DNA of 64,000 nt, from assembly GCA_027923505.1 (NCBI GenBank), contig BROI01000005.1, forward strand, positions 124,001-188,000, written 5' to 3'. Below the pieces are notes generated by a model. It was not told where the DNA came from. It was given only the letters and a program-made list of their open reading frames with translations, and searched no databases. Source of the DNA: Mayamaea pseudoterrestris (Eukaryota; Bacillariophyta; Bacillariophyceae; Sellaphorales; Sellaphoraceae). Shown in pieces: positions 10,465 to 61,316 of this stretch. The translations under genes and the position numbers were made by a program. Each line of letters begins with the position of its first letter. The stretch's first letter is position 1.

Positions 10465-10661
10465 AAATCGTATAGTCAGGGAGGTGTGGCTGACTATAGG
10501 CAAAGGCAAGAAACAATCATTTCAACCTGTCTTGAACGTAGCCACACCAGAGAAGCCTTATGGCAAGAATATAAAAGATGTACGAGTATGACCCTAGCTA
10601 TATCCTAGCACAACCCATTATTATTTGGAGACTGTTCGACCTTGCATTTGAGCCTCTGTCA

Positions 10662-13611: not shown

Positions 13612-13845
13612 AGTACGTAGAAAATCATTAGTAATGGGTCCATTCTGCATGCGAGGTCGTGTACATGTTTGATCAAATATTTAGTGGATTCTCATACATG
13701 TACATAAAACTTTACAACGAATGCACGTACTAACGTACATTGAAAATTTGAGAGCGTTTTAGATTGATCACGGGCGGCGGCACATTGACTTCGTCATGGC
13801 AAGTCGTTTGATGAAATTGATAAGTCTTGTTAGTGATCCGTTCAA

Positions 13846-14955: not shown

Positions 14956-15163
14956 TTTGATGCGTTAATGGAAGCTTGTAGATTGTAGCAGTCTCCTAGA
15001 AGCACGCTTGATTGAGCCATCCATGTTGCATGTTGTCGTGATCGATGTTTTGCAAGATTCATTCGTGTCGCAGTGGCAATGGCTATACCACTGCGACATT
15101 GTTTAGGTTATCGGCCGTCGCGGAGCCTGCGCGAATTTCGACGAACACATCACAAATTCCACC
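14956..15163. promoter_or_regulatory. Bidirectional promoter TAF7 / MAPR, copy 1
   Basis: Only 208 bp separate the two start codons, so both promoters overlap. The equivalent region in copy 2 is 23953-24135 (183 bp). No TATA box is evident; the accessible sequence holds inverted ccactgcgac / gtcgcagtgg-like stretches near 15070-15100. Confidence 0.45.
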
Positions 15164-16181: not shown

Positions 16182-16286
16182 TGTAATGATATAGGTGTGC
16201 ATTTAGATTTTATACCGATAATATTTTGGCCGTCGCATCAGCGGATCGTGTCGAGGAAACACTATGGCTGCTGCCACTGCCCATTA
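16051..16286. repeat. Identity tract B (unit 1)
   Basis: These 236 bp match 25023-25258 without a difference. They cover the 3' end of the MAPR gene, the 28-bp spacer and the 3' end of the convergent four-TM gene. Sequence just outside differs (TTG/CTG codon on the left, aagtc/tatcg on the right). Confidence 0.85.
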
Positions 16287-17043
16287 AGTCATCCGTACTT
16301 TGTCGCATTTCTGGTACATTGGCATAGTCACCCGCAAAGGTGGCTGATGGCCTGCTACTGTTATTGTATCCGCTGCTCGTCGTGTACATTGGGTCGACCG
16401 TTCCCACTGGTTCGTACTGGTCCGCGTGCAGCTGCGATGAAAACTCCCGTCGCCCCACGGCCAGCAACAGGCAGGCGCAAAAGTTGACCCAAAAGACCAA
16501 GCCCGCCCACAGCCACACGCTGGTGGAGCGGTTGCAGTAGATGGGTGCGTCGCGACTGCTGCCGTTGTCGTGGAATCGTTCCGTGGTATTTTCGTGGCTG
16601 TCATATCCATCGCTCCGTCGATTACCACTTCCGTAGTAAGACTGCTTCGAGCAAGTTCCATATTTGAACGATTGCGACAAGACAAAGGACAGTATGGAGG
16701 CACCAATGGTAATGCCCAAAGCGACTCCCATGATGAAATCGTTCGGCGACAAGAAACTCAAGCTGGAGGAGAGTCTTCCGTTGTTCAAAATGGCCCACAC
16801 GGTGGCATTCTGCAGTATCAGAAAGAGTGACATCCATATCAAGGGAAGTGTATTGTTATTGCTGATTGATTGACTCCAGCAGGAGAGAAACAGAAACATG
16901 TTCAAAACGAATAGCAAGATCAGTAGGTGGTTCAAAATTTTGGCCATGGAATCCAAATGAAGGGCCGCGTAGGTTGTAACATCGCGGGGACAAAAGGATA
17001 AATTCTCCTCCAAACGATGTGGAAGCATGTTTCGTTGCATCAT
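16210..17043 (-). CDS. Four-TM membrane protein, unknown function (copy 1)
   Basis: Single exon, 277 aa, ATG at 17043. There are four hydrophobic helices: NHLLILLFVLNMFLFLSCW (about 38-57), LPLIWMSLFLILQNATVW (about 67-84), FIMGVALGITIGASILSFVL (about 103-122) and VWLWAGLVFWVNFCACLLLAV (about 177-197). A 50-residue polar loop with several N-x-S/T sequons lies between helices 3 and 4, and a Ser/Asn-rich C-tail of about 75 residues follows. The layout resembles MARVEL or tetraspan proteins, but I see no diagnostic motif. The first two-thirds is more conserved between copies than the loop and tail. Confidence 0.7.
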   Translation of the reverse strand: MMQRNMLPHRLEENLSFCPRDVTTYAALHLDSMAKILNHLLILLFVLNMFLFLSCWSQSISNNNTLPLIWMSLFLILQNATVWAILNNGRLSSSLSFLSPNDFIMGVALGITIGASILSFVLSQSFKYGTCSKQSYYGSGNRRSDGYDSHENTTERFHDNGSSRDAPIYCNRSTSVWLWAGLVFWVNFCACLLLAVGRREFSSQLHADQYEPVGTVDPMYTTSSGYNNSSRPSATFAGDYANVPEMRQSTDDLMGSGSSHSVSSTRSADATAKILSV

Positions 17044-17163
17044 GCTGTATTATTGTATATTGACTGTGAATGGAAGGGTAGATCAATCTGGTCGTCGATG
17101 CGAGTGATGTGTTGTGTCGTGTCGTGTCGTGTCGTTGTGAGTGGGTTTTCAATGGCTCACTTG

Positions 17164-17328
17164 TCAAATGTTTTTCTCGCTTGATACTTTGGGCAAGTCG
17201 TCTAATTCTTCCAGCAGATTCAACGCAACCTTTGCGGCTTTTAAGGCATTGTTTGAAAACCAAAGGAACTCTGGCAAGGCTTTTTTCCAACAAGTTCCTT
17301 TTTGCGTGGTCGTCGCTTGGTCGCTCAT
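17164..17328 (-). CDS. Candidate 54-aa small ORF upstream of four-TM gene
   Basis: ATG at 17328, TGA ending at 17164. The product has an amphipathic, Leu-rich helix (KKALPEFLWFSNNALKAAK, then VALNLLEELDDLPK) that looks protein-like. It lies on the same strand 120 bp before the four-TM start codon, so it could be an upstream ORF or a separate micro-gene. An intron ending in ctaacag sits just upstream. In unit 2 the start codon is ACG and a one-base insertion shifts the frame, so it is not kept there. Coding status is uncertain. Confidence 0.3.
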   Translation of the reverse strand: MSDQATTTQKGTCWKKALPEFLWFSNNALKAAKVALNLLEELDDLPKVSSEKNI

Positions 17329-17365
17329 GTCGCACTGTTAGTAAAACGTTAATCTCAGCAATAAA

Positions 17366-17607
17366 CTCACGGGATGACATCGATTGCCATGGCCTCGCTA
17401 CTTGACAATCAACCAAAATACCATTCATGATGCTATAGTAAGAGTCGTAAACAAAAGATAATCTTTATTCATGGCAACCAAAATGAAGATAGGTTGACTT
17501 AAAAATTCCAGCCCCAACAGGCCGCTCGCAAAACACCAAAATTCATGAACAAAGTATAGCACAGTTCTCGATATCGTCCAAACACAAAACAAAGTAAAAA
17601 TCTCTCT
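17366..17607. repeat. Identity tract C (unit 1), AMT 3' flank
   Basis: These 242 bp are identical to 26352-26593, the 3' flank of the intact ammonium transporter gene. They contain no coding sequence I accept, yet are better conserved than the duplicated exons. Confidence 0.9.
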
Positions 17608-17680
17608 TTAGCCCGCAGCTTCCTCGGCGATGATTGGCTTTTCGTCCGCACGAACTTCCTCATCCTGCGTCGACTTTTTC
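17608..17680 (-). pseudogene. 3' stub of ammonium transporter gene
   Basis: These 73 bp encode the last 23 residues and the stop of the ammonium transporter (ending ADEKPIIAEEAAG, versus ADEKPIVAEEAAG in the intact gene). The rest of the gene is absent because the duplication breakpoint falls here. The stub uses stop TAA with two extra T bases, while the intact gene uses TAG. It is non-functional on its own and marks the junction exactly. Confidence 0.95.
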
Positions 17681-17713
17681 CACCACGCCAGCCAGCGTGC
17701 GTTGCAGCGCGGG

Positions 17714-17719
17714 TGACGT
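17714..17719 (+). promoter_or_regulatory. TGACGT (CRE-core) upstream of aldolase 2
   Basis: Counterpart of 8613-8618, 88 bp before the ATG. Since only 127 bp of ancestral upstream DNA lies before this copy, this element is among the few promoter parts it kept. Confidence 0.35.
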
Positions 17720-17807
17720 ACGATCGTGCCGCGCACACGACCCTCGAATCCATTCTTTTGGATCTCTGGTTCATCTTTCCGGCAACTGTACTTGCTTCGT
17801 CTCCACC

Positions 17808-19562
17808 ATGGCCTCTCTAAACGAACTCGTACCTCCCGGCGTCGTCACGGGCGACAATTTGCTGGTGCTCTTCAAGCATGCCCGCGACAATGGATACGCC
17901 ATTCCGGCGGTCAACTGCACATCGTAAGTGTTTTGAAAGTTGCTTTGGTGCGATTGTTGTTCGTTCGTTCGACAGCTGCTTGTTGAACTGTTGAACTATG
18001 GAAACTACTGCTTACGAGTATGTATGCGCAAGGGATCATTGTTTTTGGCTACATAAACCTGTAACGAGCGTGTGTCTCGTCATCCGTTCCACCATGCTGT
18101 TGCTGTAATATCCTGTTGCATTAACGGCCTGTTGCTTTACACTCTTTCATCAGTTCATCGACTGCCAACGCTTGTCTGGAAGCTGCCAAAAAGGCCAAGT
18201 CTCCCGTCATTATCCAAGTCTCCAATGGAGGTGGCGCCTTTCTGGCCGGAAAGGCTGTCAAGGATCCCAACGCTGCCGCCGTTGGGTCAGTGGCGCTGGC
18301 CATGCACATTCGCTCCGTCGCTGCCTACTACGGCATTCCAGTGGTGATTCACTCGGATCATTGCGCAAAAAAGGTATGATTACTGTTGCTGGATGCTGCA
18401 CCGATTCCTCCAAGTTTTATATGACTATATCTCACACAACAAGCCTATTATAGCTCCTTCCCTGGTTCGACGGCATGCTCGACGCCGACAAGGAATTCTT
18501 CGACAAGTACGGCGAGCCCTTGTTTGGATCGCACATGCTGGATCTCTCGGAGGAGCCCGATGAAGAAAACATTGCCATTTGCGTCGAGTACTTTAAAAAG
18601 ATGGCGCCCATGAAGATTTGGTTGGAAATGGAGATTGGTATTACGGGAGGCGAAGAAGACGGCGTCAACAACGAGGGTATTGACCCGGAGAAGCTGTACA
18701 CGTCTCCCGAGCAGGTTTACTCCGTCTACGAGTCGCTCTCCAAGATTTCGCCCATGTTTAGTATTGCGGCTGCCTTTGGAAACGTTCACGGCGTCTACAA
18801 ACCGGGCAACGTCAAGCTCAGCCCCGAGCGCCTTGGCCACCATCAGGCGCACACGAAGAAAATGATTGGTAGCGGCTTGGAAAAACCAATCTTTTTGGTC
18901 ATGCATGGAGGATCTGGTAGCACGGATGATGAAATCAAGACGGCCGTCAGCAATGGCGTCATCAAGATGAACATTGATACCGACACTCAATGGTAAGTTC
19001 GCATGATCCTTGGTATGATCGTCTGTCTGTCAGTCTCGTTTTCTGATTTATTTTCTGCCAATATTCAGGTCTTATTGGGATGGTTTGAGAATCTTTGAAA
19101 AAGAGAAGCGCGATTACTTGCAGGCGCAGATTGGAAATCCAACGGGAGCAGACAAGCCGAACAAGAAATTCTACGATCCGCGCGTCTGGATCCGCAAGGC
19201 CGAGGAGGCAATGGTGACCCGCGTTGAAACTTCCATGGATAAGCTGAATAGCAAGGGAACGTATGAACCAAAGACGGAGGGTGCGACGCCCCAGCTGGGA
19301 TCCCTCAAGAATCCTAATCCCATCACGTTGGTGTGCCTTGGTGCATTACTTGGGTCGGCGGTCATGCTCATCCTCAAGAAGTAAGTCATAGCACTTGCAT
19401 AGTGCTTGTTTTTGCAGTTGAGACTGCTAACAGGAATGTCCATATTACCTGTTATATAGTATATTGACAACCACTCTCTCGGAGTTTATAAAAACGCAAG
19501 CGATTGTGCCTGTTGTTAGTACCGTGGTTGATGAATTGACGGAACTGGCGACGGAACTTTAG
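17808..19562 (+). CDS. FBA: Class II fructose-bisphosphate aldolase with C-terminal membrane extension (copy 2)
   Basis: Five exons in the same places as copy 1: 17808-17923, 18154-18373, 18454-18992, 19069-19380, 19460-19562, giving 429 aa. In the 173 residues I compared from exon 3 the two proteins are identical although the DNA differs at about 14 synonymous sites; one substitution (Val to Ile, in GLRIFEKEK) is seen in exon 4. All zinc ligands and the C-terminal hydrophobic extension are kept. The upstream region is chimeric: 127 bp of aldolase flank preceded by the 3' end of the transporter gene on the other strand, so its expression may differ from copy 1. Confidence 0.93.
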
Positions 19563-19595
19563 TTATTTGTTACTTGTGCCATGTCGTCTACGTAT
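19390..19595. repeat. Identity tract A (unit 2)
   Basis: Partner of 10259-10464: 206 identical bases spanning intron 4, exon 5 and the 3' flank of the aldolase gene. Confidence 0.85.
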
Positions 19596-19780
19596 GCATC
19601 GTATAGTCAGGGATAATTTGCTGAATATAGTCGAAGGCAAGAAGCAATCACTTCAACCTGTTTTTCAAGTAACCATACCAGAGAAGCCTGGCAAAGAATA
19701 TAAAAGATGTATGAACGTAGCTATTTCCTAGCACGCAGCCCATTAAAAGACTATAAGACATTGCATTTGAGCCTCTGTCA

Positions 19781-20977
19781 CTAAGCCTGTCGAACATCTG
19801 CATGATTAATTTCAAAAATGGATTGTGAAGGCACGACATGCGTCACGTGCTCATTCTGCCGCGTTACGGTGAGCCGTGGCTGCCAGATACCACTTGAGCG
19901 CTGACTTGCATTGCTACTGCCTCCATATGACAAGGGCTCTAATCGACCATCGGAACCAATCGTAAAGAGTGATGGCACGCTCCCGCTACCACCACTAAAC
20001 GCCATGGCCAGCTGCCGCTGCTGCTGCTCATTTTCATGCTGCATCGCCGGCAAAACGTCGGTATATTCTTGCCGACAAATGGGGCAGTGTTGCTTCTTGC
20101 TGAGCCATCCAATGATGCATTCCGTGTGAAAGACGTGTGGGCAGTGCGAAAACCACGTGACGCGTTCGCCAGGTTCGTATTGCGACAAGCAAATGGCGCA
20201 CATGGAATTCACCGAGCGACCTATTGGTAATCTTAGTAGCAGTCGATTGGACTCCTCCATGCAGTCGTTCATGTCGTAGTCAATTAAATGTGGGTCGTTC
20301 GATCCGCTTTCAAGATCTGTGCGTGCGACTGGCGGCGGCGTATCATTACCAGTCGCCAGAGCGCCATCTTCTTCCGCTAGTTGCTCTTTCAATGCCAGAC
20401 GAGTCGTTGCATTCTCGTTTACATCATGCTGAGCCTCCGTATCGTCCACATCAACAGCAGAAAGATCCATCAAGTCATTTTCCGTAACAATCATACTCGT
20501 CGCCTGCAACGACTCTGCCAATACTTGTTTGCGCATGATTGCATTCGCTTCACTGTGCGCCTGCTGCGTCTGCGTCCAAGCGAACCAATGGTTACGCAGC
20601 TGCAGTTGCGTGGCAGCATGCTGCGCGGCGGCGCTGCGATCCATGGCGCGCCGCCGCCCAAAGGCGCAGCAGGCGGGAACGACGCAGCAAAGCAACAGAA
20701 ACAAGTACCATGCCAAGAATGCGACAAACTCGAATGCTTCATTGTCGGAGGAGTCGTTATTGTTGTTAGTGTTGGTGCCATTGTTGGTTGCGTTACTGCC
20801 ATTGTTACTGCTGTCAGTTTGGTTAAAGGTGCTGTCGTTGAATGCACCTGTCGCGTTTTCGCTGCCAATCTCCATCGTCGTGCTTTCATTCTGCTGACTA
20901 GCAGCGAAAGCTTGCATCAAAAAGGCTGCCAGCCAGCATATTTTTGCCAGCGAAACGTTTCGTTTCATCATTTTCAT
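19781..20977 (-). CDS. Membrane-anchored RING-H2 ubiquitin ligase (copy 2)
   Basis: Single exon, 398 aa; the ATG at 20977 matches the start of copy 1. Signal peptide, Asn-rich luminal segment, membrane helix and RING-H2 finger (CAICLSQYEPGE ... HVFHTECI ... CPICRQ) are all intact. Compared with copy 1 it lacks about 27 residues in the tail, between RLTVT and NEH, so the Pro/Trp segment is gone but the frame and the final ADVRQA remain. It also carries scattered amino-acid replacements in the luminal and linker parts, many more than the aldolase pair, consistent with weaker constraint outside the RING. Confidence 0.87.
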   Translation of the reverse strand: MKMMKRNVSLAKICWLAAFLMQAFAASQQNESTTMEIGSENATGAFNDSTFNQTDSSNNGSNATNNGTNTNNNNDSSDNEAFEFVAFLAWYLFLLLCCVVPACCAFGRRRAMDRSAAAQHAATQLQLRNHWFAWTQTQQAHSEANAIMRKQVLAESLQATSMIVTENDLMDLSAVDVDDTEAQHDVNENATTRLALKEQLAEEDGALATGNDTPPPVARTDLESGSNDPHLIDYDMNDCMEESNRLLLRLPIGRSVNSMCAICLSQYEPGERVTWFSHCPHVFHTECIIGWLSKKQHCPICRQEYTDVLPAMQHENEQQQRQLAMAFSGGSGSVPSLFTIGSDGRLEPLSYGGSSNASQRSSGIWQPRLTVTRQNEHVTHVVPSQSIFEINHADVRQA

Positions 20978-21481
20978 TGTCAAATTCGATTTGACGTCGC
21001 AGATGATTGCCGAGAGGTGCGAAGAGTTGCAGTCGGTAAACTTTCAACGACTTTTTTATTACACTCAAGTCACTCAATGTTTTAACAGTTACAGAAATAG
21101 TTCGTGTACAAAAAGAGCAAAGGGTTTGAGCTTTCTCAGCAATCTCTGCTCTTGCTTTCACTTCATTGTGACGATGCTTTTGCAGCGGACTGTCGTGCCG
21201 CGCCGGCGCGCCATTTCCATGAGAAGTTTGGGCTTCCTCGGAACAGCTTTCTGGCGTTCCATATGTAGCGTTCCATTACCCCTGTCAGCCCAATATCGAA
21301 CGCTTGAGTAAGAAATCACTGACGCAGAAGGAACGAGTCACACATTCTCGGCATCGCTCCGGTTTTGATCTTCCTCATCGCTCATTGCCATGACACCCAT
21401 GGTTCGACGATTCGCAACTTCGCCTTGCATTGCCTTGCATTGCGCGTGAGAACATTGGATACACATTCGCATCACTACATC
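20978..21481. promoter_or_regulatory. Bidirectional promoter RING / PCMT, copy 2
   Basis: 504 bp, counterpart of 11940-12457. The gccgcgccggcgcgccatttcc element is kept, with GGCGCGCC at 21205-21212, amid substitutions and indels. Confidence 0.45.
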
Positions 21482-22637
21482 ATGCGGCAGCAGCCTTGCG
21501 TCTCGCTGCTCAGCGTCTTGTTTCTCATTCATCAACAGCAGTATCATTTTCGTCGCCAAGTGCACGCAGCAGACACTCGTGCACTACAACTTGCCTTTCA
21601 AGACTGCAATTCCATTCCAAGCAGCAATAACAATAGTCATCAACGACCCATTGAAGGAGATCCATCTCCAGAAACAGCAAAAATCATGCGTTCCGCTTGG
21701 CACTGCCACGGCCGCAACCAGCGCGAGCTCGTTCAAAACCTCATGGAAGCCAACATTATTCGACATTCACAAGTCGCCCAGGTCATGTCGTTGGTGGATC
21801 GCAAGTACTACTTGCCAAAGCTATCGTCGCTCTTTGGGGGTGATGCGAGTGCGGCGCTCTATCCATACGTCGATGCGCCGCAAAGTATTGGACATGGGCA
21901 AACCATATCGGGTGAGTATCGTGTGTATAATTGTGAATGCAAATGTAGAGACGTGGATGCGATTCATTGCTCACTTTTACATGCTGCTTGTTTCCTTGAC
22001 AGCCCCTCACATGCACGCTCACGTACTGGAAGAGATTGTTCCTCACTTGCTTCCAGTAACGGACGACGAAACAGACTCGCCTACTGCTGGCAATGACGAG
22101 TCATCCAAGATGGAGCCTGTCAAGATTTTGGACGTTGGCTGCGGATCAGGCTACTTGACGGCCTGCTTTGGTCGCTTGGTGCACACGTCACCGCCACTGA
22201 CGCCGACCAGCATACTGGGCCGACCCGGCAAGGTGTTTGGCGTGGACATTTATCCGGAACTGGTCGCGCGGTCCAAGCAAAACATTCAGTCGGGACCAGA
22301 CAAAGAGCTACTGGAGGCCGGCACGATTCAACTTATGATTGCGAACGGATGGAAGGGACTACCGAACGAGGCGCCCTTTGACGCCATTCACGTTGGAGCA
22401 GCGGCGGAGGAATTGCCCAAGGCGCTGGCAATGCAGTTGAAAGTAGGTGGCGTGCTGATTGTACCCGTTGGACCGCAGGGAGAGGCGCAAGTGCTGTACA
22501 AGGTGGAGCGAGTCAAGCAGCAGCAGCATGATGTGAATGACGCAAGGGAGGAGCCGGATGGTGCGTTTGATCCGTCGGATTATCGAATCAAGCAGCTGCT
22601 GGGTGTTCAATACGTGCCGCTGGTCAAAGAGCTTTGA
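21482..22637 (+). CDS. PCMT: Protein-L-isoaspartate O-methyltransferase (copy 2)
   Basis: Two exons, 21482-21911 and 22003-22637, same phase and position as copy 1, 354 aa. The catalytic core and SAM motif (ILDVGCGSGYL) match copy 1; differences cluster in the N-terminal extension and in an acidic loop after LLPVTDDE. The frame is open 117 bp further upstream, but the ATG at 21482 aligns with copy 1 and is preferred. Convergent with TAF7 copy 2. Confidence 0.93.
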
Positions 22638-22848
22638 ACGAATACATTGGCGATGGGTCCATTCTGCATGCGAGGTCGTTTACATGCTTGATTAAATATC
22701 CAGTGAATGCTCATACATTTACATGAATCTCTACAACGAATGCACTTATTGCCGTGCAAGCGTACATACATTGGAAAATTTGACGACGTTTAGAATCACG
22801 CAGCCACATACTTCGTCATGGCAAGAAATTATACAGTAAACCGTTCAA

Positions 22849-23952
22849 TCAATTCATTTCATCAAAATTCATATCATCGTCATCGAGATCAAACTCTTTG
22901 AAAAAGTCTTCATCCACGCCAAGTAGATCATTGCCATCACCCGCCGCCATCATGCTTGCCGCCAGCGTTACATCATCCACCATTTCTTGCTGCTGCTGCA
23001 AGTTAACGACAGGTTCTGGTCGATTCTTCTTGCTGGCAATTCCCTTTTTGGGTTTGGCAGCCGGTATATTTTCCGCGTCTTGTCGTTTCTTTCGCTGTAG
23101 TTGCTGTTGCTCCTCCAACTGTTTCCTCTTGGCTTCCGCCGCTTCATTCTGAATCGCTAGTATATCCTCCGGCTTGAGCCATACTTCAGGATGTGCACTA
23201 CATATTTGATCATCTGCATCAAACTGAACACCTTGCGGCTGCCGTCCATAGTCATCCATCCATGGCTCATAGTTGACAATCTCCTCCGTCACCTCCTCCA
23301 GCACGCGCGCCTGCGTATGACTCGACGACGTACCCGCCTTTGGAATCTTGACCTTTTTGACCTTTTCGTCCTTGTGCAGCTGCCCCATGAGTTGCACCAA
23401 CTCCCGCTCCACCGCCGCCACGTTGCGCCGCGGCGGCGCAATGCGCTCATGCTCGCGGGTTGCAAACCGCCGCTCCACGACGCGATGCATCGGCGGCGTC
23501 ACGCCCGAGTGATAGTAGGATGGATATCCGTCAGTGGGTTGCTCCTGCGCCTCCTCGAGGGCCATGTCGTCTTCATAGACAATCAGCATTTGCGCCACGT
23601 CGACGCTCTTGTAGTACATGGCGTGGTCGTGCGTCTTGTGTAGCTCGATGGGGCAGGGTAGATTGACGAGCGTGGCTGGATAGCGGGCGCCGTCGCAGCA
23701 AAATTCCCACAGGGTGCGATGGCGGGCCTCGGTCGGTTGGCACGTGACGCCTTCCAAGTCGAGGTAGGAGTCGGGAGTTGTTGCTGGTGCTGGTGCTGGA
23801 GTGTTGTTGTTGTTGTTGTTACTGTTGGATGATGCCGCTGCTGCTGCACGTTCCTCGCACTCCTTCATCTTGTCGCGGAGGCGAGCTTCGAGACGAGGGA
23901 CCAAAATGCGAAGGACAAGGGTTCGGTCGCGGACGGGTAAACGGTCGCTCAT
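22849..23952 (-). CDS. TAF7: TFIID subunit TAF7 (copy 2)
   Basis: Single exon, 367 aa, ATG at 23952. The TAFII55 domain motifs (LVNLPCPIELHKTHD, YYKSVDVAQMLIVYED, GVTPPMHRVV) are the same as in copy 1. The Asn-rich insert has a different length and composition and a Pro/Ala repeat follows; the Ser run before HAQ/HTQ is shorter. The acidic C-terminus is identical. Both copies look functional, so the genome carries two intact TAF7 genes here. Confidence 0.85.
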   Translation of the reverse strand: MSDRLPVRDRTLVLRILVPRLEARLRDKMKECEERAAAAASSNSNNNNNNTPAPAPATTPDSYLDLEGVTCQPTEARHRTLWEFCCDGARYPATLVNLPCPIELHKTHDHAMYYKSVDVAQMLIVYEDDMALEEAQEQPTDGYPSYYHSGVTPPMHRVVERRFATREHERIAPPRRNVAAVERELVQLMGQLHKDEKVKKVKIPKAGTSSSHTQARVLEEVTEEIVNYEPWMDDYGRQPQGVQFDADDQICSAHPEVWLKPEDILAIQNEAAEAKRKQLEEQQQLQRKKRQDAENIPAAKPKKGIASKKNRPEPVVNLQQQQEMVDDVTLAASMMAAGDGNDLLGVDEDFFKEFDLDDDDMNFDEMN

Positions 23953-24135
23953 TTTGATGCATTAAGGAAAGCTTGTGGTACTGTGATCGAGCCATTCATG
24001 TTGCTTGTTGTCGCGATCATCAATGTTTTGCAGCTTTCATTCGTGTCGTAGCGGCAATGCGATACCACTACGACATTTCGTCAGGTTATCAGCCGCCGCG
24101 CGCGTGAATTTCGACGAACAAAACACAATTCCACC

Positions 24136-25153
24136 ATGGCGTCGATCTTTGAAACGCTCCACGAGTATTACGATCGACTAACGGGAACGACTGGAGGCTT
24201 AGGTGTACGTGCTAATGATTGACTGATATGAAAACGATGGTTAAACACTCTGTTGAAGAAAAATGGAGAGGAGATATCGTCAATCAAAGAGTTCATGCTG
24301 CATCGCATTATCGCATACCTCGCCTCATCTTTTTGATCCTCAACATATTGCGTTACAGTATCTTGTTATTCTGGCACTCGTCGCTGGGGGCTACCTTTAT
24401 ACGAGCGCAAGCTTCATGTCTTCGCAAGAACACAATCGCGTGGTTCTTTCGACTAGCAAGAAGGACGACACCGACAAGGAGCCACTGCGCAACTTTACCA
24501 TTACCCAACTCCAAAAATTCAACGGCACGAACGACCAACCAGTCTACTTGTCAGTGTCTGGCATTGTCTTTGACGTTTCGGACGGTCGCGACTTTTACGG
24601 TCCCGGTGGTCCCTACGAGAAGTTTGCCGGCTGCGAGTGCGGCGTGGCCTTGGCGAAAATGAGTTTCGACAGCGAGCATTTGAATGATTTTGATGGCATT
24701 GCGCAGTTGAATTTTGGAGAAAAGGCGGAACTAGAGGGGTGGATTGACAAGTTTACCAACTATCGAAGCTATCCAGTCAAGGGGAGATTGGTGCCAGACA
24801 AGTTACTGCCGCGTGCCGATCATATTTGGACGGCAGACGAATTGGCGTTGCATGACGGCACGCAGGAGATTCCAACCAACTACGCCGCTGCTCCCATTTA
24901 CATTGGCGCCGGGAACAAGGTGTTTGACATGAGTTTCGGTGGCGTGTCGTTCTATGGCGCTGGCGGACCCTACCAAAAGTTTGCCGGCAAGATTGTGAGT
25001 CGAGCGCTGGCGAAAATGAGTCTGGACGATGACGACCTCGTTTCAAACGATGTGAGTGACTTGACGGAGAAGCAGCTGGGGATTATGAATGACTGGATTA
25101 AAACGTTTGAGGAAAAGAAGAACTACCCAATTGTGGGTAGACTTGAAAAGTAG
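24136..25153 (+). CDS. Double cytochrome-b5-like (MAPR) heme protein (copy 2)
   Basis: Two exons, 24136-24204 and 24359-25153, phase 0, 287 aa. The first exon reads MASIFETLHEYYDRLTG, slightly diverged from copy 1; the membrane helix is YLVILALVAGGYLYTSASF. Both MAPR domains keep the F-Y-G-x-G-G-P-Y motif. The last 130 or so coding bases lie in identity tract B and are the same as copy 1. The 183-bp gap to TAF7 copy 2 is a shared promoter. Confidence 0.87.
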
Positions 25154-25258
25154 TGTAATGATATAGGTGTGCATTTAGATTTTATACCGATAATATTTTG
25201 GCCGTCGCATCAGCGGATCGTGTCGAGGAAACACTATGGCTGCTGCCACTGCCCATTA
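25023..25258. repeat. Identity tract B (unit 2)
   Basis: Partner of 16051-16286, 236 identical bases across the convergent 3' ends of the MAPR and four-TM genes. Confidence 0.85.
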
Positions 25259-26027
25259 TATCGTCAGTACTTTGTCGAATCTCAGGTACATTGGCATAGT
25301 CACCCGCAAAGGTGGCTGATGGCCTGCTGCTACTGTTATTGTATCCGCCGCCACTATTCGTGTACATTGGATCCACCGTTCCCACTGGTTCGTACTGGTC
25401 CGCGTGGAGCTGCGACGACGAGGAAAACTCGCGCCGCCCCACGGCCAGCAAGAGGCAGGCGCAAAAGTTGACCCAAAAAACAAAGCCCGCCCACAGCCAC
25501 ACGCCAGTGGAGCGGTTGCAGTAACTTAATGGGTCGCGACTGCTGCTTTCGTGGAATCGTTCCGTGGTGTTTTCGTGACTATCATATCCATCGCTCCGTC
25601 GATTATCACTACCGTAGTAAGACTGCTTCGAGCAAGTTCCATACTTGAACGATTGCGACAAGACAAAGGACAGTATGGATGCACCAATGGTAATGCCCAA
25701 GGCGACTCCCATGATGAAATCGTTCGGCGCCAAAAAGCTAAAGTGGGAGGAGAGCCGTCCATTGTTCAAAATGGCCCAGACGGTAGCATTCTGCAGTATC
25801 AGAAAGAGTGACATCCATATCAAGGGAAGTGTATTGCTATTGCCACTGAATGATTGACTCCAGCAGGAGAAGAACAGAAACATGTTCAAAACGAACAGCA
25901 AGACCATTAGGTGATTCAAAATCTTGGCCATGGAATCCAAATGAAGGGCCGCGTAGGTTGTGACATCGCGGGGACAAAAGGATAAATTCTCCTCCAGGCG
26001 ATGTGGAAGCATGTTTCGTTGCATCAT
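25182..26027 (-). CDS. Four-TM membrane protein, unknown function (copy 2)
   Basis: Single exon, 281 aa, ATG at 26027. The same four hydrophobic helices as copy 1 are present; helix 1 starts NHLMVLLFVLNMFLF. The glycosylation-prone loop has lost two residues (HESSSRDPLSY versus HDNGSSRDAPIY) and the tail has gained a few Ser/Gly residues. Function is unknown. Confidence 0.7.
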   Translation of the reverse strand: MMQRNMLPHRLEENLSFCPRDVTTYAALHLDSMAKILNHLMVLLFVLNMFLFFSCWSQSFSGNSNTLPLIWMSLFLILQNATVWAILNNGRLSSHFSFLAPNDFIMGVALGITIGASILSFVLSQSFKYGTCSKQSYYGSDNRRSDGYDSHENTTERFHESSSRDPLSYCNRSTGVWLWAGFVFWVNFCACLLLAVGRREFSSSSQLHADQYEPVGTVDPMYTNSGGGYNNSSSRPSATFAGDYANVPEIRQSTDDIMGSGSSHSVSSTRSADATAKILSV

Positions 26028-26591
26028 ATTATTATATCGTGTACTGGAGGTGAATCAAGCTATGGTCGTCGAGTCGTCGATGCGAGATGCGAGTGATGTG
26101 TCGTTGTCGTTCTGATGAAGTTCTCAATGGCTCAATGGCGCAATGGTCAAATGTAATTTCACGCGAAATGATGATTGAATTTGGCAAGTCGTCTAATGCT
26201 TTCAGCGAATGCAATGTATCCTTTGCGGCTTAAAATACATTGTTTGTAATAACAAAGGAACTCTGGCAAGCACAACTCCATTTTCGTGGTCGCCGCTTGG
26301 TCGCGCGTGTCGCACTGCTAATAAAAAATTCTCAGCGGTTTTGGAAATAATCTCACGGGATGACATCGATTGCCATGGCCTCGCTACTTGACAATCAACC
26401 AAAATACCATTCATGATGCTATAGTAAGAGTCGTAAACAAAAGATAATCTTTATTCATGGCAACCAAAATGAAGATAGGTTGACTTAAAAATTCCAGCCC
26501 CAACAGGCCGCTCGCAAAACACCAAAATTCATGAACAAAGTATAGCACAGTTCTCGATATCGTCCAAACACAAAACAAAGTAAAAATCTCT
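26028..26591. other. AMT 3' flank and four-TM gene 5' flank
   Basis: These 564 bp lie between the four-TM start codon and the ammonium transporter stop codon, both on the minus strand. They include identity tract C and the decayed small ORF. No other gene is seen. Confidence 0.6.
26160..26308 (-). pseudogene. Decayed counterpart of the 54-aa small ORF
   Basis: This region aligns with 17164-17328 of unit 1. The start codon position reads ACG, about 12 bp are missing near the 5' part, and one extra base (taataac against aaaacc on the plus strand, near 26250) shifts the frame relative to unit 1. Either the ORF was never coding, or unit 2 lost it. Confidence 0.3.
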
Positions 26592-26593
26592 CT
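26352..26593. repeat. Identity tract C (unit 2), AMT 3' flank
   Basis: Partner of 17366-17607; 242 identical noncoding bases directly after the transporter stop codon. Confidence 0.9.
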
Positions 26594-28878
26594 AGCCCGC
26601 AGCTTCCTCGGCGACAATCGGCTTTTCGTCCGCACGAACTTCCTCATCCTGCGTCGACTTTTTCGACCTGTTGGACGAGTCCAAGGTGAGGCGGTGACGC
26701 GATGTGTTGAGCGACTCAATGGCGGCTTGCTCCACGGCCTGAATGTCGTAGGCTGGACCCTTGTGGCGACTAATGTCCATACCGGCAATTTCTTCGAGTG
26801 GATCGCAACGGTACCATCCCATGAAGGACAAAAAGTAGAAGAACGCTCCCATGACGGTGAAAGACCACGAAAAGATGAAGAGGCAAGCAATCAACTGACA
26901 GCCAAGGAGGGTAAAGTCACCCGATCCTTCGCCCCATTCGTAGAACCAACCGGCGTGTGAGCCAAGGCCTGGGTACGCCGCCGCCAAGAGGTCCGGAGAC
27001 GAGAAGAGTCCAGTCGCAATCATGCCCTGAAAAAAGGAACATCGTAAGATAAGTGAACGCTCGATACCCTCAGTCAGGCCAGTTTACAGAGCTGCAAACT
27101 GCCACTTACCCAAGCGCCTCCGACCATGTGCACCGGCACGGCGTCCACGGCTGATAAGCAATCAGAAATATCGTGAGTACAACGAGCAAGCGTTTTAAAG
27201 CATATATGTCACAGCAGTCCGGACGTACCGTCATCAAATCTTAATTTAAGCAATACTTTAGAACCCAGCACGTAGAAAATGCCAGCCAAAATTCCAATGA
27301 CGACGGCGGCCCAAGTCTGTACAGTCGCACAACCAGACGTAATGCTATAAAGGGTCGAAAACGAAAGCATGAGCAAATCATCGCTTTTAACGCCGACAAT
27401 CATTCACAAACTTACGCAACCAATCCAGTCAAGGAACCATTCATCGTGGCAACCACATCGTACGAGTAGATTCCAGTGTGGCGCAAATCAATGTATGAGC
27501 TAAAGGCCATGGCAGAAATGGCTCCCGCGCACGCCGAAAGTGTCGTGTTGACGGCAACAAGGCCTGCCAATGCACCACCAGCCTGCGACGCAACGTAGAG
27601 CACTGAACCGGGGTTGAAGCCGTACCTGTTAGAAAACGCAGTACAGAGATGTTTGTGAGATACAGACAAAAGTATTATACCTTCTCGCAATTGACAGCAA
27701 CGTACCATCCAAACCACAGAAGAAACTATCAAACAAAAGAGAGCAACGTATGACATGAGAATATTTCTCATCGAAACGGATCACGAATAGCAATGATACT
27801 ACTAACCGTTCCAAGGAACATGAGAGCGATTGAATGAGGCGTTATCTCAGCTGGTTCTTCGAGAAGATTGCCATCCTGGTCATGGAACCGACCAATGCGC
27901 GGACCGAGGATGAGTCCACCAACAAGCGCTGCAACTCCTCCAGTCATGTGAACGGCTGAAACGAGTGTGAATGATGAAACGTTAGGTTTGGCAATCAGTT
28001 TAACCGCTCAAATTTAAACAAATACTTCACTCACCTCCAGATCCAGCTAGGTCAATCGCTCCCGACCCAAACAGTGGTTCAGCCGCAAACGCACTGAGAA
28101 AGCCTTGCGTGGACCAGAGCGAATGGGCCGCCACTGGATAAACGAATCCAACCAAAAAGCTGGAATACATTAAGTACGCCTTCATTTGCGTACGTTCCGC
28201 AATCGTTCCAGCGACAATGCTGCTGACGGCGCACGCAAACGCAAATTGAAAGAACCAAAGCTCCATGGCAATGCCCTGATTAGTATTGGCAAAGAACTGG
28301 GTGTTTCCAATGAATGTTCTGATATAGCAAAAAGGAGTCATGTGTCAGGGCATGGTGTATAAAGCAGTGGCTGCTCTAACTGTACAGGCAACTTAGTTCA
28401 ACATACTTTTCCGGTCGCCCATCATCGCCTCCGTAGGCGAAGGCCCAACCAACGGCCCAGTACGCCAAGCCACCGCCGCAACTATCCAGCAAGTTCCAGA
28501 GGATAACGTTTCGAGTATTCTTGGCGCGAATGGATCCGGCGCAAAGCATGGCAAAGCCAGCCTGCATCATGAACACCAAGGCGCCACCAAAGAGGATGAA
28601 GAAACTATTGACGCCATCGGCAACATTCTGTGCGGCCGAAAGATTAGCCTGTAGTAATGATGCAAAATAAGAATACGGTTAATCATTAGTATAGGGACAG
28701 TACCTGCATTCTCTTTTAGAAGAAAATGGTTTCGTTATGCTTGCTGACTGATGCGCAGCGAACTGCATGCACTTACCTGCTCATTCTGATCCGAAACGCA
28801 TCCTAGCAACTCACTCAGCTGGCTCGACGTATCGGGAAACTGGGCGAGACAAGTCTCAAAGATGCTGCTTCCACTCAT
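26592..28878 (-). CDS. AMT1: Ammonium transporter (AMT/MEP/Rh family), nine exons
   Basis: Exons: 28878-28777, 28648-28407, 28318-28035, 27955-27807, 27725-27706, 27625-27416, 27344-27229, 27150-27110, 27026-26592; 532 aa. Exon 5 is only 20 bp and encodes LLWFG; it is needed to read GTFLLWFGWYGFNPGS. The protein conducts NH4+/NH3 through a trimeric channel in the plasma membrane. Family signatures: FMMQAGFAMLCAGSIRAKN, the first pore His in AVHMTGGVAAL, GPRIGRF, and the second pore His in VDAVPVHMVGGAWG. About eleven membrane helices are expected; the C-terminal cytosolic tail (CDPLEEIAGMDISRHKGPAYD) carries the conserved G-x-D-x-x-x-H-G-x-x-A-Y regulatory region. Other genes nearby have zero to four introns, so eight is exceptional. 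Its last exon supplied the breakpoint of the duplication. Confidence 0.95.
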
Positions 28879-36759: not shown

Positions 36760-38418
<1,659 letters not shown>

Positions 38419-49293: not shown

Positions 49294-51510
49294 TTACAAC
49301 ACGAAATTGTCCGCCGATGAATCGTCGCCATTAAACTGGTCCAGTTTCAAGGCGCGGCAGACAGCATTGCACTCGTGAGTTCGAAAGAAGTGTCCAATGC
49401 CAGTCATTCCCAAGTCAGTGCGCCGATGCCCACTATTCTTTTTATTTCCATTTTGCTTGGTCTTGCGGTTGCAAATGCATGGGTCGGTCAGTCTATATCG
49501 CAGAGTCTGGCCTTCCTCGTTCAAGACGCCCTGGAGGTCACAAACCAGCAGCTCCTCATTCGAATCTACATATGTCCAGTGCGAAAAGGTATGAAGAAAG
49601 TCATCCAAGTAAACCGTCCCAGTGACAAGTCTTATTCGTTTGCTCAATGGTCTCGTTTTGCAAACATATCCACTATTTCCATTGTACTTGGTCCACTTGC
49701 CATCCAAATATTCTTCCACCAGCAAGGCGCGAAAGGTCTCGTCGGCGATCCCATATTTGTACACTGAGCAATTCAAGAAAGAAATGGTAGGAGCTTTTTT
49801 ACCCGAGTCGGCGGCGTTCAAAAGGTTGCACATTGACACAACTTGATTAAACCTCTCAGCGAACAAATTGGCCTTTAGTTGCTCGCGGCAGATTTCTTCG
49901 TAAAAAGTCATTTGCTGATCCGCAGTCTGATAGGATATGCTTTCTTTGGCTACCAATGGCTTTCCAAGACGCTTTCGGTCGGGGTCGATGTCGTAGCACT
50001 TGTACGCATAGCATTCTATGCCATTGCCGAAGGGCTGCTGTTGGATCATAAAGCCGATTGCTTGTCTATTCAAGAACATGTGTTCGTCCCAAGGACCATC
50101 GTTCTCTTCGTCAGGGTCAGTTTCCAAGCACCAGCGGCGTACTCCTTTCATGAATATGATATTCATGTTGTCCCTTTCTAGTGCTAGCCAGTCACAAGCC
50201 TTGTTCACTAATTTTGTTTGCGACTGAATGTCGCGAGTACTGACCTTAAAAGCGGCTCTTTTTCGGTTACGTGCTGCGGGACGTTGTCGAGTGAACTGAA
50301 CGCTCGTGTATACCCCAAGCATGCGCAGAACTCGCACCGTGGTTGAAAGCGCTGTAGTATCATCCCGTTTTCCGCCCAATCCAACAACTTTAAAGGCCAA
50401 TTTCGGTCCAAACCTATCTGCCAACTGGCGAAGAGTTCGGGCATGATCGTCGGGGAGCAAGTAATCGGCGGATGGTCTGCCTTGAGTCAAAACGACGAGA
50501 GCAAGTGATGGGAGAGCTTCAAACCGCATTCCTTTACTTTGCCGAAGCTGATGTTTTAACAGTTTATCCACAGCTTCTTGCTTTTCGTTGTACCCGTAAT
50601 ACGTGTGGCTTACAGGTTGAGCCGATGGCTTCTTCAAGCGTAGTTTGTTGAAAAGAATCCAATCCAATGGCGCCTCACAGAATACTGACCCATGGTCATG
50701 CATCTCAAAGATAGACATTGTATGGATTCCGCCATCGCCTTCAGCTACGCCATTTAGCTGTTCAGCAATGTATTCCAATGCCGGTAGTCTATAGGCCGCT
50801 CGTGCTTTCTCCGCCGATCCATACTTATCGACAATGAGAATGGTATGAGTTGCGCACATCATTGGCTTTAACTGAATGGCCCGCATCAGCTCATCATGTT
50901 TCTGGTGCATAGCTGGCGTAGTATAAGCTTTAGGAACAACTCCCGGTTGTCGGAAGGAGGTGATTTCGCGGCGACTCGTCCAGTCAGTCACGTACATGAT
51001 TCCATTGTAGTAGTAGACCCAGCGCGGTTCTCCGGTATGCTCATCGGGATAGCCCAGGATTTTGATTCCATACTTGACGCATGCGTGCAAGTCTTGTTTT
51101 AAAATGTTGCGTTCTGTACGGCGAGCTCGACCATGCTTGCTGGAAAGAATTGTCATTTCCTCAATTCTTGTCGTCTCGGCGGTGGCGATCGAATCATCCT
51201 CAGTTTCCGTGGAATTTTCATCAAAAAGAGTACCCGAGGAACCCTCCATGAAGATAAAGTCGCCTTCTGATGATTTTAGATCATCATTGAATATATAATT
51301 CTTTCGTTGGTGAACGAGAATCAAGGCCTTTTCAAACGATACAGCTGATTCATTGGCTGTATTACTTGTCGACTCATTCGATTGACTCGAATACAAAAAA
51401 TTTGCAAGCTTCCTTGGAGGGGATGATTGGGCTGGTGAGGTTGATGCCATGGTTGGTGGAAACAAAATCGGGGATGTGAGCGTCAGTTTCGCTGCAAAAC
51501 TCACGGTCAT
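49294..51510 (-). CDS. Alpha-kinase with N-terminal VWA-like region
   Basis: Single exon, 738 aa, ATG at 51510 (a second ATG at 51453). The C-terminal 300 residues are an atypical alpha-kinase (MHCK/eEF2K type): PLVAKESISY with the ATP-binding Lys, ELLVCDLQGVLN, RLTDPCICN, LGMTGIGHFFRTHECNAVCRALKL. The H-x-C-x3-C at the end is the structural zinc site of this family. The middle part (TILIVDKYGSAEKARAAYRL ... ALVVLTQGRPSADYLL ... FKVVGLGG) reads like a von Willebrand factor A fold with a degenerate metal site, as in the VWKA kinases of slime moulds and some algae. The N-terminus is Ser-rich. It shares a 215-bp promoter region with the CXC gene. Confidence 0.85.
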   Translation of the reverse strand: MTVSFAAKLTLTSPILFPPTMASTSPAQSSPPRKLANFLYSSQSNESTSNTANESAVSFEKALILVHQRKNYIFNDDLKSSEGDFIFMEGSSGTLFDENSTETEDDSIATAETTRIEEMTILSSKHGRARRTERNILKQDLHACVKYGIKILGYPDEHTGEPRWVYYYNGIMYVTDWTSRREITSFRQPGVVPKAYTTPAMHQKHDELMRAIQLKPMMCATHTILIVDKYGSAEKARAAYRLPALEYIAEQLNGVAEGDGGIHTMSIFEMHDHGSVFCEAPLDWILFNKLRLKKPSAQPVSHTYYGYNEKQEAVDKLLKHQLRQSKGMRFEALPSLALVVLTQGRPSADYLLPDDHARTLRQLADRFGPKLAFKVVGLGGKRDDTTALSTTVRVLRMLGVYTSVQFTRQRPAARNRKRAAFKVSTRDIQSQTKLVNKACDWLALERDNMNIIFMKGVRRWCLETDPDEENDGPWDEHMFLNRQAIGFMIQQQPFGNGIECYAYKCYDIDPDRKRLGKPLVAKESISYQTADQQMTFYEEICREQLKANLFAERFNQVVSMCNLLNAADSGKKAPTISFLNCSVYKYGIADETFRALLVEEYLDGKWTKYNGNSGYVCKTRPLSKRIRLVTGTVYLDDFLHTFSHWTYVDSNEELLVCDLQGVLNEEGQTLRYRLTDPCICNRKTKQNGNKKNSGHRRTDLGMTGIGHFFRTHECNAVCRALKLDQFNGDDSSADNFVL

Positions 51511-59188: not shown

Positions 59189-59677
59189 TTAACGACGCGC
59201 CACCGGTGCCAATGTGTCCGTTCCTTCCACAGCAGCAATCGGCATGCGAGTCGGTGCGTCAGTTGCCATGCTCATGCTCATACTCATCTCATGATCGAAC
59301 AGTCCCTTTGGTAGCTTGCCCATCTTGGGCATGGTTGGTTGAGGTGGCGGAGGCGCCTTTTCTCCCTTGACAGACTTTGCAGCCTTTGGTTCCTTTGGCG
59401 CCTTGGACAGCTTGGCCATGCCTTGTTTGCTGGCTTCGTGCACCTTCTTCTTGGGTAGGACTGGAGGCGATTTCTTGGTTGGGTAGCTCATGTCAAAGCT
59501 CATGGAGAATTCCATAGCAGGTTGGACGCCGCCTCCCTTGCCTTTTAGTACACGTCGTGCTCTCACCAATTCTTGGTCCATGCCGCGAATCAAAACCTCC
59601 TCGTCCTGCAATCGTTGACTAGCACTGGCGACACTGCACATGGCAAGCATGGCCGCGGAAAGGAATAGCTTGGTCAT
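59189..59677 (-). CDS. Silaffin-like secreted protein 1 (seven-lysine KxxK cluster)
   Basis: Single exon, 162 aa, ATG at 59677. MTKLFLSAAMLAMCSVASAS is a signal peptide. Residues 89-107 read KLSKAPKEPKAAKSVKGEK: seven lysines at exactly three-residue spacing, an extended form of the pentalysine cluster (KxxKxxKxxKxxK) that targets silaffins to forming silica in diatoms. Before it lie an ARRVL site resembling the R-x-L processing site of silica proteins, a Ser/Met segment (MEFSMSFDMSY) and a KKK triplet; after it, a Pro run and MSMSMSM, a repeat common in diatom secreted proteins. The protein likely enters the secretory route to the silica deposition vesicle or cell wall; this is inferred from composition. 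The next gene upstream has the same kind of cluster. Confidence 0.7.
   Translation of the reverse strand: MTKLFLSAAMLAMCSVASASQRLQDEEVLIRGMDQELVRARRVLKGKGGGVQPAMEFSMSFDMSYPTKKSPPVLPKKKVHEASKQGMAKLSKAPKEPKAAKSVKGEKAPPPPQPTMPKMGKLPKGLFDHEMSMSMSMATDAPTRMPIAAVEGTDTLAPVARR
59357..59413 (-). other. Lysine cluster (Kxx)6K of silaffin-like protein 1
   Basis: Codons for residues 89-107. Lysines at 89, 92, 95, 98, 101, 104 and 107, alternating with small or acidic/Pro pairs (LS, AP, EP, AA, SV, GE). Confidence 0.85.
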
Positions 59678-60125
59678 GGTGTTTACTTACGTCGGTGCGA
59701 GTAAAGTATAGACTGCTGTTGCCTGATCAATGCGAAAGTATGACGGAAAGCAAGACATGATCATGATGTTTTGAGTTGATCTTGTTTGGTGAGCGATTCC
59801 CTTGACGCATTTTTGCACGACGAAATCCGGCGCGCCGGGCGGTCTAGCGATCACGTAAGGTGAGCACCAACTCGGTACTCAATCATTGGACATTCAGCTA
59901 TGGCTGTTGATGGTTTCGGTGGAGTTTTACCGTTACCATCATCAAGTTGCACGGGATCTCATCGATGGACATTTGTATAAAAGTGTTAATTCCATGAAGC
60001 ACTGATCACCAAACGAAATACATTGGATGCCCATGCGCATTCACTTTTCATACTTGACCAAAGAAGATACATTTAAAATGTAGTAGGAGTTAAAAACATA
60101 AACGCAGATTACAACTAATGTTTCA
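59678..60125. other. Intergenic between the two silaffin-like genes
   Basis: These 448 bp hold the promoter of silaffin-like gene 1 and the 3' flank of gene 2. GGCGCGCC occurs at 59829-59836 inside ccggcgcgccgggcgg, about 155 bp before the ATG of gene 1. No gene is seen. Confidence 0.4.
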
Positions 60126-61316
60126 CTATGTTGTGGGCGCAGAAGGGGAAGCGGATACGGGTGTAAGCGAATCGAGTGACGGTGCTTTTGTTGGGACGAT
60201 TGTGTCAGTTCCAGCACTCGGCGGTGATGATCCGACCGCCGGTGCTCCAGTTGGTATAGGTCCAGTCGCCGGGGCTCCTGTCGGTGCGCTTGTGCTAGGC
60301 ACTCCAGGCACCGTCGGCGAAGCGACTGTAGGTGTTGGTGCCGTAGTCGGTATGATTGTGTCTGGGCCAATGGGTGCACCCGTTACAAATGTAGGATTCC
60401 GCGTCGGCCGCCTGGCCGGTTGTTGGGCAGGTTGTTGTGCTGGCTGACCGATAGGAGCGATACCGATAGGCTGAGCGATGGGGCGCGTAGGGCGATGCAT
60501 CATCATCATCATTCTCATTCGCCTGTGCTTTGACGACCCCTTGACTTTTGGTGTTCCCCGTTTAAATTTATTTGCTCCTTTTGCTTCACCTTTAACTTTG
60601 TAGGCTGCTTTTGCAAAGGCGCCACCTCCCTTGCCGGCATTGAAACCCCAGTCATTTTTCCCGCTAGGTCCCTTCGGATCCTTTACGCCTTTCTTTGCTT
60701 TGTTCCATTTTTTATCTTTTGAGCCTTTTATTGCGTTGGAACCCTTACTCCAAATTTTTCCTTGAAATTTGCCGTCCTTTCCTTTAGCTTCTTTCGGCCC
60801 TTCCCTGCTGCCAACGTTGTATCCATTCCACCGAATGAAAATATTGTTCTTGACTCGATTCTCCACCACACTGACCCTGATGTTGTTCACTGGGATTTCA
60901 TTCACTCTATTGTTGTTACCGCCTTTGTTGACGTTGCCTCGATCCACAGTATGAGGCCACGCCAGCCTAGAAATGGCGGCGCCATTACTGACTGCAGCAA
61001 CCTGTTGCCCCAGCTTATTAAATATACTGTCCTGCTGCAAATTTCGATGGGTTCCGGTCTGATGCACCACGTCGTCAAGATGTAAAGCTACGGTCGTGGT
61101 TGCATCACCTTCTGAGCTGCTTCTATTACTTTGCACATCTGCATCAAGGTCGGATGTGTGTATATGATGCTTTACTGTATCGCCTAGCTCGTTGGATGTC
61201 TCCAAACTTTGTCGTTGTGCCAAGGACGAGGATCCTTCTTCTTTGGTATTCGCATCTGTTGATGCGCAGCACACGACCAGCACCAACCAAAAGCATACTA
61301 GTCGCTCTAGCCACAT
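60126..61316 (-). CDS. Silaffin-like secreted protein 2 (seven-lysine cluster, Pro/Thr-rich tail)
   Basis: Single exon, 396 aa from the ATG at 61316, chosen because MWLERLVCFWLVLVVCCASTDA is a clean signal peptide; the frame is open further upstream, with another ATG at 61376. An acidic region ends with HRNLQQ (R-x-L-like site). A Lys/Gly-rich region follows, and residues 197-215 read KGSKDKKWNKAKKGVKDPK: seven lysines at exact three-residue spacing, the same pattern as the neighbour. Further KxxK and KxK motifs occur up to an RMRMMMMMH stretch. The last 130 residues are Pro/Thr/Ala-rich (RPTRNPTF, PTTAPTPT, APTGAPATGP), like the mucin-like tails of diatom cell-wall proteins. A role in silica or wall formation is inferred. 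Confidence 0.7.
   Translation of the reverse strand: MWLERLVCFWLVLVVCCASTDANTKEEGSSSLAQRQSLETSNELGDTVKHHIHTSDLDADVQSNRSSSEGDATTTVALHLDDVVHQTGTHRNLQQDSIFNKLGQQVAAVSNGAAISRLAWPHTVDRGNVNKGGNNNRVNEIPVNNIRVSVVENRVKNNIFIRWNGYNVGSREGPKEAKGKDGKFQGKIWSKGSNAIKGSKDKKWNKAKKGVKDPKGPSGKNDWGFNAGKGGGAFAKAAYKVKGEAKGANKFKRGTPKVKGSSKHRRMRMMMMMHRPTRPIAQPIGIAPIGQPAQQPAQQPARRPTRNPTFVTGAPIGPDTIIPTTAPTPTVASPTVPGVPSTSAPTGAPATGPIPTGAPAVGSSPPSAGTDTIVPTKAPSLDSLTPVSASPSAPTT
60672..60728 (-). other. Lysine cluster (Kxx)6K of silaffin-like protein 2
   Basis: Codons for residues 197-215. Lysines at 197, 200, 203, 206, 209, 212 and 215; spacers GS, DK, WN, AK, GV, DP. Confidence 0.85.

Follow-up and report, generated by a model that had tools for sequence, protein, structure and literature searches.

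Known silica proteins and the two genes

In the excerpts available from the literature, silaffins are described as carrying lysines in KXXK arrangement, sites of R-x-L processing and phosphoserines (PMC4557024), and pentalysine clusters, that is, five lysines within 12-14 residues, are described as directing GFP fusions to the frustule (PMC9650480). Similar excerpts describe the Scheffel screen, which relies on 18% Ser and 10% Lys per 100 aa (PMC3478156, PMC3820600), and a screen for KXXK in which X is S or G (PMC5501833). The latter source also mentions PT repeats in 14 silaffin-like/KXXK proteins of Thalassiosira, and the excerpted text of PMC3478156 notes that two of the KXXK genes co-expressed with the silaffin tpSil3 share the motif MSMSM.

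The two genes considered here, A and B, lie in a window of 64,000 nucleotides. Pentalysine clusters according to the five-lysine definition are present in both proteins and go beyond that minimum, as the first-pass annotation of the window had claimed, with seven lysines in step and with three (A) and nine (B) overlapping clusters when five non-adjacent lysines within a span of up to 14 residues are searched for. Both proteins fail the Scheffel composition rule: Ser never exceeds 11% in A, and in B it amounts to 7% where Lys is 26% and reaches its maximum of 14% where Lys is 3%. Moreover, spacers made of S or G occur in none of the eight KXXK of A and in one of the eight of B, which leaves both outside the KXXK screen with X = S or G.

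According to excerpts of PMC9650480 and PMC4557024, tpSil1 and tpSil3 have in common with A and B a signal peptide (predicted in A and B), an R-x-L sequence, five lysines within 12-14 residues and KXXK. However, A and B differ from them in having few serines in the spacers, and the likeness is one of described features, not of sequence homology. The silaffin-like proteins of the Scheffel screen, the cingulins, Tp5357 and Tp12162 also resemble A and B in predicted secretion, in lacking a further hydrophobic span (none was found in A or B besides the signal peptide) and in clustered KXXK, whereas A and B, unlike the Scheffel-screen and lysine-enriched-region proteins, depart from the rule of 18% Ser and 10% Lys and have spacers that are almost never S or G. 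Finally, Thaps3_24597 and Thaps3_25838, which are co-expressed with tpSil3, combine MSMSM with KXXK as A does, but their lysine domains are described in the excerpts of PMC3478156 as Ser-rich repeats or a Ser-rich end, and that of A is neither. A and B are classed here not as members of the screened families but as a serine-poor variant, one expected to act as silaffins do, and they do not look wholly new.

Genomic setting and layout of the genes

The host genome is a diatom genome, since it contains silicon transporters, matched by ten pieces with a best E of 2e-197, and encodes many chlorophyll-binding proteins. At L003-L005 (contig 1:2970661-2974680), a single open frame of 1445 aa holds three silicon-transporter units in series; a SIT family of the pennate Synedra is the subject of PMC6114903.

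As the first-pass annotation proposed, A and B are consecutive open reading frames (ORFs) on the same strand, B upstream and A downstream, and both, with B read from the ATG at 61316, are predicted to be secreted by a crude hydropathy/cleavage rule that an exportin-5-like gene passes too. This last gene is located downstream of A, beyond a 156-aa ORF without Pfam match that adjoins A, and on its 5' side B is flanked by a gene whose armadillo/HEAT matches in Pfam are weak and below the cut-off. The annotation was also accurate in describing one protein with S-M repeats (A, MSMSMSM) and another with a Pro/Thr-rich tail (B, residues 274-396); A has a Pro/Thr-rich tail as well, which is short, unlike the long one of B. 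The features of both genes are collected in Table 1.

Several other features were observed along the contig and in the rest of the genome. A 10.7-kb tandem duplication, whose copies are 99.99% identical, spans contig 5:103843-125327, reaching into window positions 1-1327, and is either very recent or an assembly artefact. An older tandem duplication of about 9 kb (window 8577-26668, 88.6-91.6% identical) carries duplicated ORFs, some of them signal-peptide-like. At window 37275-38411, a 228-bp tandem repeat (86-89% identical) lies within overlapping ORFs, and window 49294-51510 encodes a protein with an alpha-kinase domain (Pfam E 4e-38). Elsewhere, locus L023 holds a long PT-repeat frame, 905 aa of it open, with many PTKxPS-like units, and other PT/K-rich frames adjoin it.

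Table 1. Features of genes A and B, in window positions, and layout of the MSMS/KxxK proteins encoded elsewhere in the genome
Feature	Position	Strand	Basis
Gene A, single open frame of 162 aa, Lys-rich product predicted to be secreted	59189..59677	minus	ORF, codon score
A, predicted signal peptide, residues 1-19, cleavage placed by eye	59621..59677	minus	crude hydropathy/cleavage rule passed
A, sole R-x-L, RVL, residues 42-44	59546..59554	minus	sequence
A, first Met/Ser-rich stretch, MEFSMSFDM, residues 55-63	59489..59515	minus	alignment
A, ladder of seven lysines, residues 89-107, with three overlapping pentalysine clusters	59357..59413	minus	sequence, shuffles
A, MSMSMSM run, residues 131-137	59267..59287	minus	sequence; encoded by a 6-nt tandem repeat (4.7 copies)
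Gene B, 396 aa, product rich in Lys and with a Pro/Thr-rich tail	60126..61316	minus	ORF; frame open from 61376
B, predicted signal peptide, residues 1-19, given ATG 61316; cleavage by eye	61260..61316	minus	crude rule passed
B, sole R-x-L, RNL, residues 91-93, then QQD	61038..61046	minus	sequence
B, domain rich in Lys, residues 175-263, with nine overlapping pentalysine clusters	60528..60794	minus	sequence
B, seven-lysine ladder, residues 197-215	60672..60728	minus	sequence, shuffles
B, Met run MRMMMMM, residues 267-273; partly a CAT/ATG triplet run	60498..60518	minus	sequence
B, Pro/Thr/Ala-rich tail, residues 274-396	60129..60497	minus	composition; low-confidence in model, no secondary structure
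X1, contig 1, 85 aa: signal peptide, HRSL, QMSMSMSM, then KSPKGMK
X2, contig 1, 523-aa frame: signal peptide, SRSL, YEMSMSMSMSMSM, then long SKAAKGSKGG-type repeat
Contig-3 protein: RSL, HEMSMSMSFSM, then KMASKAIKGSKGVKGASKGSK (ladder of 4), seven prolines
Contig-2 protein: RSLQQD, MSMSMM, KxxK

The frame of A ranks first of six both on codon score (0.226, with a training mean of 0.139) and on a score of synonymous codons only (0.095), and a Pfam search with A at an E cut-off of 0.1 gave no match. The frame of B is also the first of six on codon score, but the value is weak (0.016, with the same training mean), and its synonymous-only score of -0.031 is not the best of the six frames. In an AF2 model of B made without relatives, the mean pLDDT is 40.6, 350 of the 396 residues are below 50, and only the first two 10-residue blocks, which form a helix, average above 70.

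Lysine ladders compared with chance

The seven lysines at exact three-residue steps that had been reported for A and B are borne out, running from residues 89 and 92 to 107 in A (KLSKAPKEPKAAKSVKGEK) and from 197 to 215 in B (KGSKDKKWNKAKKGVKDPK). A ladder of at least seven was reached in one of 20,000 whole-protein shuffles of A and in none of the 20,000 of B. When the Lys-rich stretches that hold the ladders were shuffled, this rose to 42, 17 and 10 per 20,000 for A (40, 60 and 80 aa) and to 84 per 20,000 for B (80 aa). Moreover, among the 211 non-overlapping ORFs of contig 5:1-258000 (retained from 480 by dropping those below 80 aa or overlapped to at least 30% by longer ones, with introns ignored and some ORFs counted twice owing to the 10.7-kb near-exact duplication), ladders of at least five are found in A and B only, the next best being 4, against an expectation of 0.21 ORFs (60-aa block shuffle) or 0.04 (whole shuffle), so that the ladders do stand out from a shuffled background. 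At the other steps from 1 to 10, four ORFs have a ladder of at least five at step 1, one each at steps 2 and 6, and none at the rest; B reaches five lysines at step 6.

Pairs of lysines are in excess at lag 3 in the Lys-rich domain of A (p 0.009) but not over the whole domain of B (p 0.22); the p values at lag 6 are 0.026 (A) and 0.008 (B). The spacers, described earlier as unrelated, have a mean identity over six ladder units of 0.32 (A) and 0.30 (B), and a tandem repeat is not evident in the ladder DNA, TRF giving one weak 9-nt row of 2.6 copies on A (59382-59404). With 13 (A) and 14 (B) lysines within 40 aa, both proteins are at the top of the 38 signal-peptide-like ORFs, the next having 8. 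Pentalysine clusters are found in 15 of the 211 ORFs, and 12 of the 13 besides A and B fail the signal-peptide rule.

The R-x-L site that had been noted before the cluster is present in both proteins, but it is not telling, because R-x-L within residues 21-130 is equally common in signal-peptide-like ORFs (17/38) and in the others (78/173); R-x-L-Q is found in 4/38 and 5/173, respectively.

MSMS/KxxK proteins elsewhere in the genome

Among the 211 ORFs, MSMSM or other Met runs are present only in A (MSMSMSM) and B (MRMMMMM). A genome-wide search for an MSMS pattern gave 8 sites, compared with 3 for the reversed control, and a pattern with TCA/TCC/TCT serines gave 0 matches. MSMSMS is spelled at five of the eight sites, namely, in A, at two sites on contig 1, on contig 3 and on contig 13; four of them (A, X1, X2 and contig 3) fall in MSMS/KxxK proteins, and the fifth, on contig 13, lies C-terminally in an acidic protein, the start of which the reading did not reach. 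The contig-26 site is MSMTMS and seems to be outside a coding frame, and two contig-2 sites spell MSMTMC and MTMTMT.

X1 and X2 are same-strand neighbours on contig 1 and their alignment score was matched by 0, 0 and 0 of 500 shuffles (12-aa blocks, 30-aa blocks and whole), that of X1 with the contig-3 protein being matched by 2, 4 and 1 of 500. With 24% S and 18% K over the 324 aa read, X2 is, as judged from its predicted sequence, a canonical Ser/Lys/Gly-repeat silaffin-like protein. Its repeat also matches several other places (E 3e-7 to 0.5), one of them about 2.6 kb from X1. X2, X1 and a weak Ser/Lys/Gly-rich match (E 0.0026) make up a silaffin-like cluster of about 5 kb (L049, L053, contig 1:1268121-1268351). 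The contig-2 protein, a relative retrieved with the contig-3 protein as query, matches it at 63% over residues 21-88 (E 6e-13), and the two are 50% identical over the aligned part; a contig-6 match from the contig-3 protein (E 0.025) was set aside as Pro/Met-rich and without the family layout.

All four proteins (X1, X2, contig 3 and contig 2) pass the signal-peptide rule, and in all four RSL lies shortly ahead of MSMS, at distances of 1, 2, 4 and 3 residues, a proximity of R-x-L that within-protein shuffles reproduce in 3 to 13% of cases each, the contig-2 and contig-3 proteins not being independent. The step between lysines differs by one residue in these last two proteins (KGSK versus KGASK), and gaps of 3 and 4 are mixed in both. 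Thus, seven lysines in step are not a conserved module in them, and the notion of the exact spacing as such a module is not supported.

The same mixed spacing could be expected if the ladders were a by-product of Lys-rich low-complexity drift, with a functionless spacing in which only charge, or nothing, matters. This would also accord with the 0.05-0.4% of local shuffles that contain ladders of seven and with the missing lag-3 excess across the domain of B. However, two adjacent genes reach seven and nothing else exceeds 4 among the 211 ORFs, and the spacer DNA is not evidently repetitive, so that drift appears quite improbable as the explanation of the ladders.

Relationships of A and B

A resembles X2 and the contig-3 and contig-2 proteins in its signal peptide, R-x-L, MSMS-type run and KxxK, and shares poly-Pro with the contig-3 protein. 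In A, RVL is followed about ten residues on by an SM-rich stretch, then by the ladder and later by the MSMS run, whereas the other three have RSL; the second MSMS run after the ladder also sets A apart from them, and seven lysines in step are seen only in A and B. A and the contig-3 protein are colinear (Met-rich part, lysines, GKLPK), MEFSMSFDM of A lining up with MSMSMSFSM, with a score of 65 that was equalled in 14 (12-aa blocks), 10 (30-aa blocks) and 2 (whole) of 500 shuffles, counts that are uncorrected for this being the best of three pairs tried between A or B and the family. The other two pairs were A with X1 (score 46, equalled in 27, 12 and 5 of 500) and B with the contig-3 protein (score 47, equalled in 41, 23 and 8 of 500). 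The profile A2 matched A with E 0.00022 and a probability of 45%, a match that rests on HEMSMSMS, whereas B failed to match the family profile (E 0.057, probability 1%). The case for kinship of A with the MSMS/KxxK proteins is suggestive and not proof, because its MSMS run is a 6-nt DNA tandem repeat, and repeated independent origin of such runs by slippage is possible.

B contains no MSMS run, although RxLQQD is common to B (RNLQQD) and the contig-2 protein (RSLQQD). Homology between A and B was considered and rejected, since shuffled sequences attained their local alignment score of 48 in 341, 271 and 413 of 1000 cases (10-, 20- and 40-aa blocks) and in 33 of 1000 when whole proteins were shuffled; likewise, the parts after the ladders are not significantly similar. 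No convincing relative emerged when the genome was searched with A, B and their Lys-rich parts, and the frames at the weak matches L045-L047 (E 0.28 to 1.8) read unlike secreted Lys-rich proteins.

Alternatively, A could be silica-associated and B an unrelated neighbour or, with a start upstream of 61316, a Lys-rich protein of the cell interior. The ORF of B opens 60 nt further upstream, at 61376, and offers as candidate starts this ATG, two in-frame ATGs in between and that at 61316. From the first ATG, B fails the crude signal-peptide rule, which it passes from 61316, and its weak coding score and the A–B alignment, not significant against local shuffles, would also suit this alternative. 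Position -3 is A for the ATG at 61316 and T for that at 61376, which speaks against the upstream start, but the two intermediate ATGs share A at -3 with 61316. Furthermore, the order of Lys-rich part, Met run and PTR(M)PIA is colinear in A and B. A silica-associated A next to an unrelated or intracellular B seems rather unlikely.

Proposed function and implications

The features of the predicted proteins make it moderately probable that the products of A and B are secreted proteins of the diatom cell wall, basic and for the most part unstructured. A is probably a divergent silica-associated protein, given the MSMS/KxxK proteins of the same genome, including the silaffin-like X2, and the MSMSM/KXXK genes co-expressed with tpSil3. 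The silica role of B is less secure, with no proven homology and an uncertain start codon. Hence, the silica-associated pair put forward in the first-pass annotation finds indirect support for A through both of these links, and B is its less secure member.

Secreted basic or Pro/Thr-rich proteins might instead belong to the cell surface, to mucilage or to an adhesive, with acidic polysaccharide and not silica as their ligand. The long Pro/Thr/Ala tail of B would suit such a function, as would the PT-repeat frame at L023, while the Pfam Mucin match of B lends little, because it is sub-threshold (17.7 bits, cut-off 34.7) and covers residues 1-50, that is, the signal region and not the tail. Nevertheless, the tail of A is short, A shares the MSMS run together with KxxK with a canonical silaffin-like protein, and PT repeats also occur in the 14 Thalassiosira proteins mentioned above (excerpts of PMC5501833), all of which makes a mucilage or adhesive function an unlikely one.

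As cell wall proteins, A and B would enter the ER, be cut at the R-x-L site and have their lysines modified, and the clustered lysines could carry them into the silica deposition vesicle, where they would attach to acidic partners or to silica as it forms and be retained in the wall; the Pro/Thr tail of B may carry O-glycans. The action of both proteins would resemble that of silaffins and cingulins, except that serines are scarce between the lysines, so that acidic partners or other modifications would be needed to replace phosphoserines of their own. With a lysine at every third residue, the lysines would all point to the same side of a chain in extended, polyproline-type form. A speculative extension, and an unlikely one as it stands, is that of a serine-poor silica-targeting branch in which a three-residue Lys rhythm, set along a single side of an extended chain rich in Pro, would replace the phosphoserine-rich design of silaffins, and MSMS runs would be a second sorting or assembly motif shared across wall proteins.

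The two published silica-protein screens filter on serine or on S/G spacers, and A and B fail both. RSL followed by MSMS within four residues, as in four predicted secreted proteins, would provide a second, simple search handle for diatom wall proteins. Moreover, this recurrence makes the unexplained MSMSM motif, as described in the excerpts of PMC3478156, testable.
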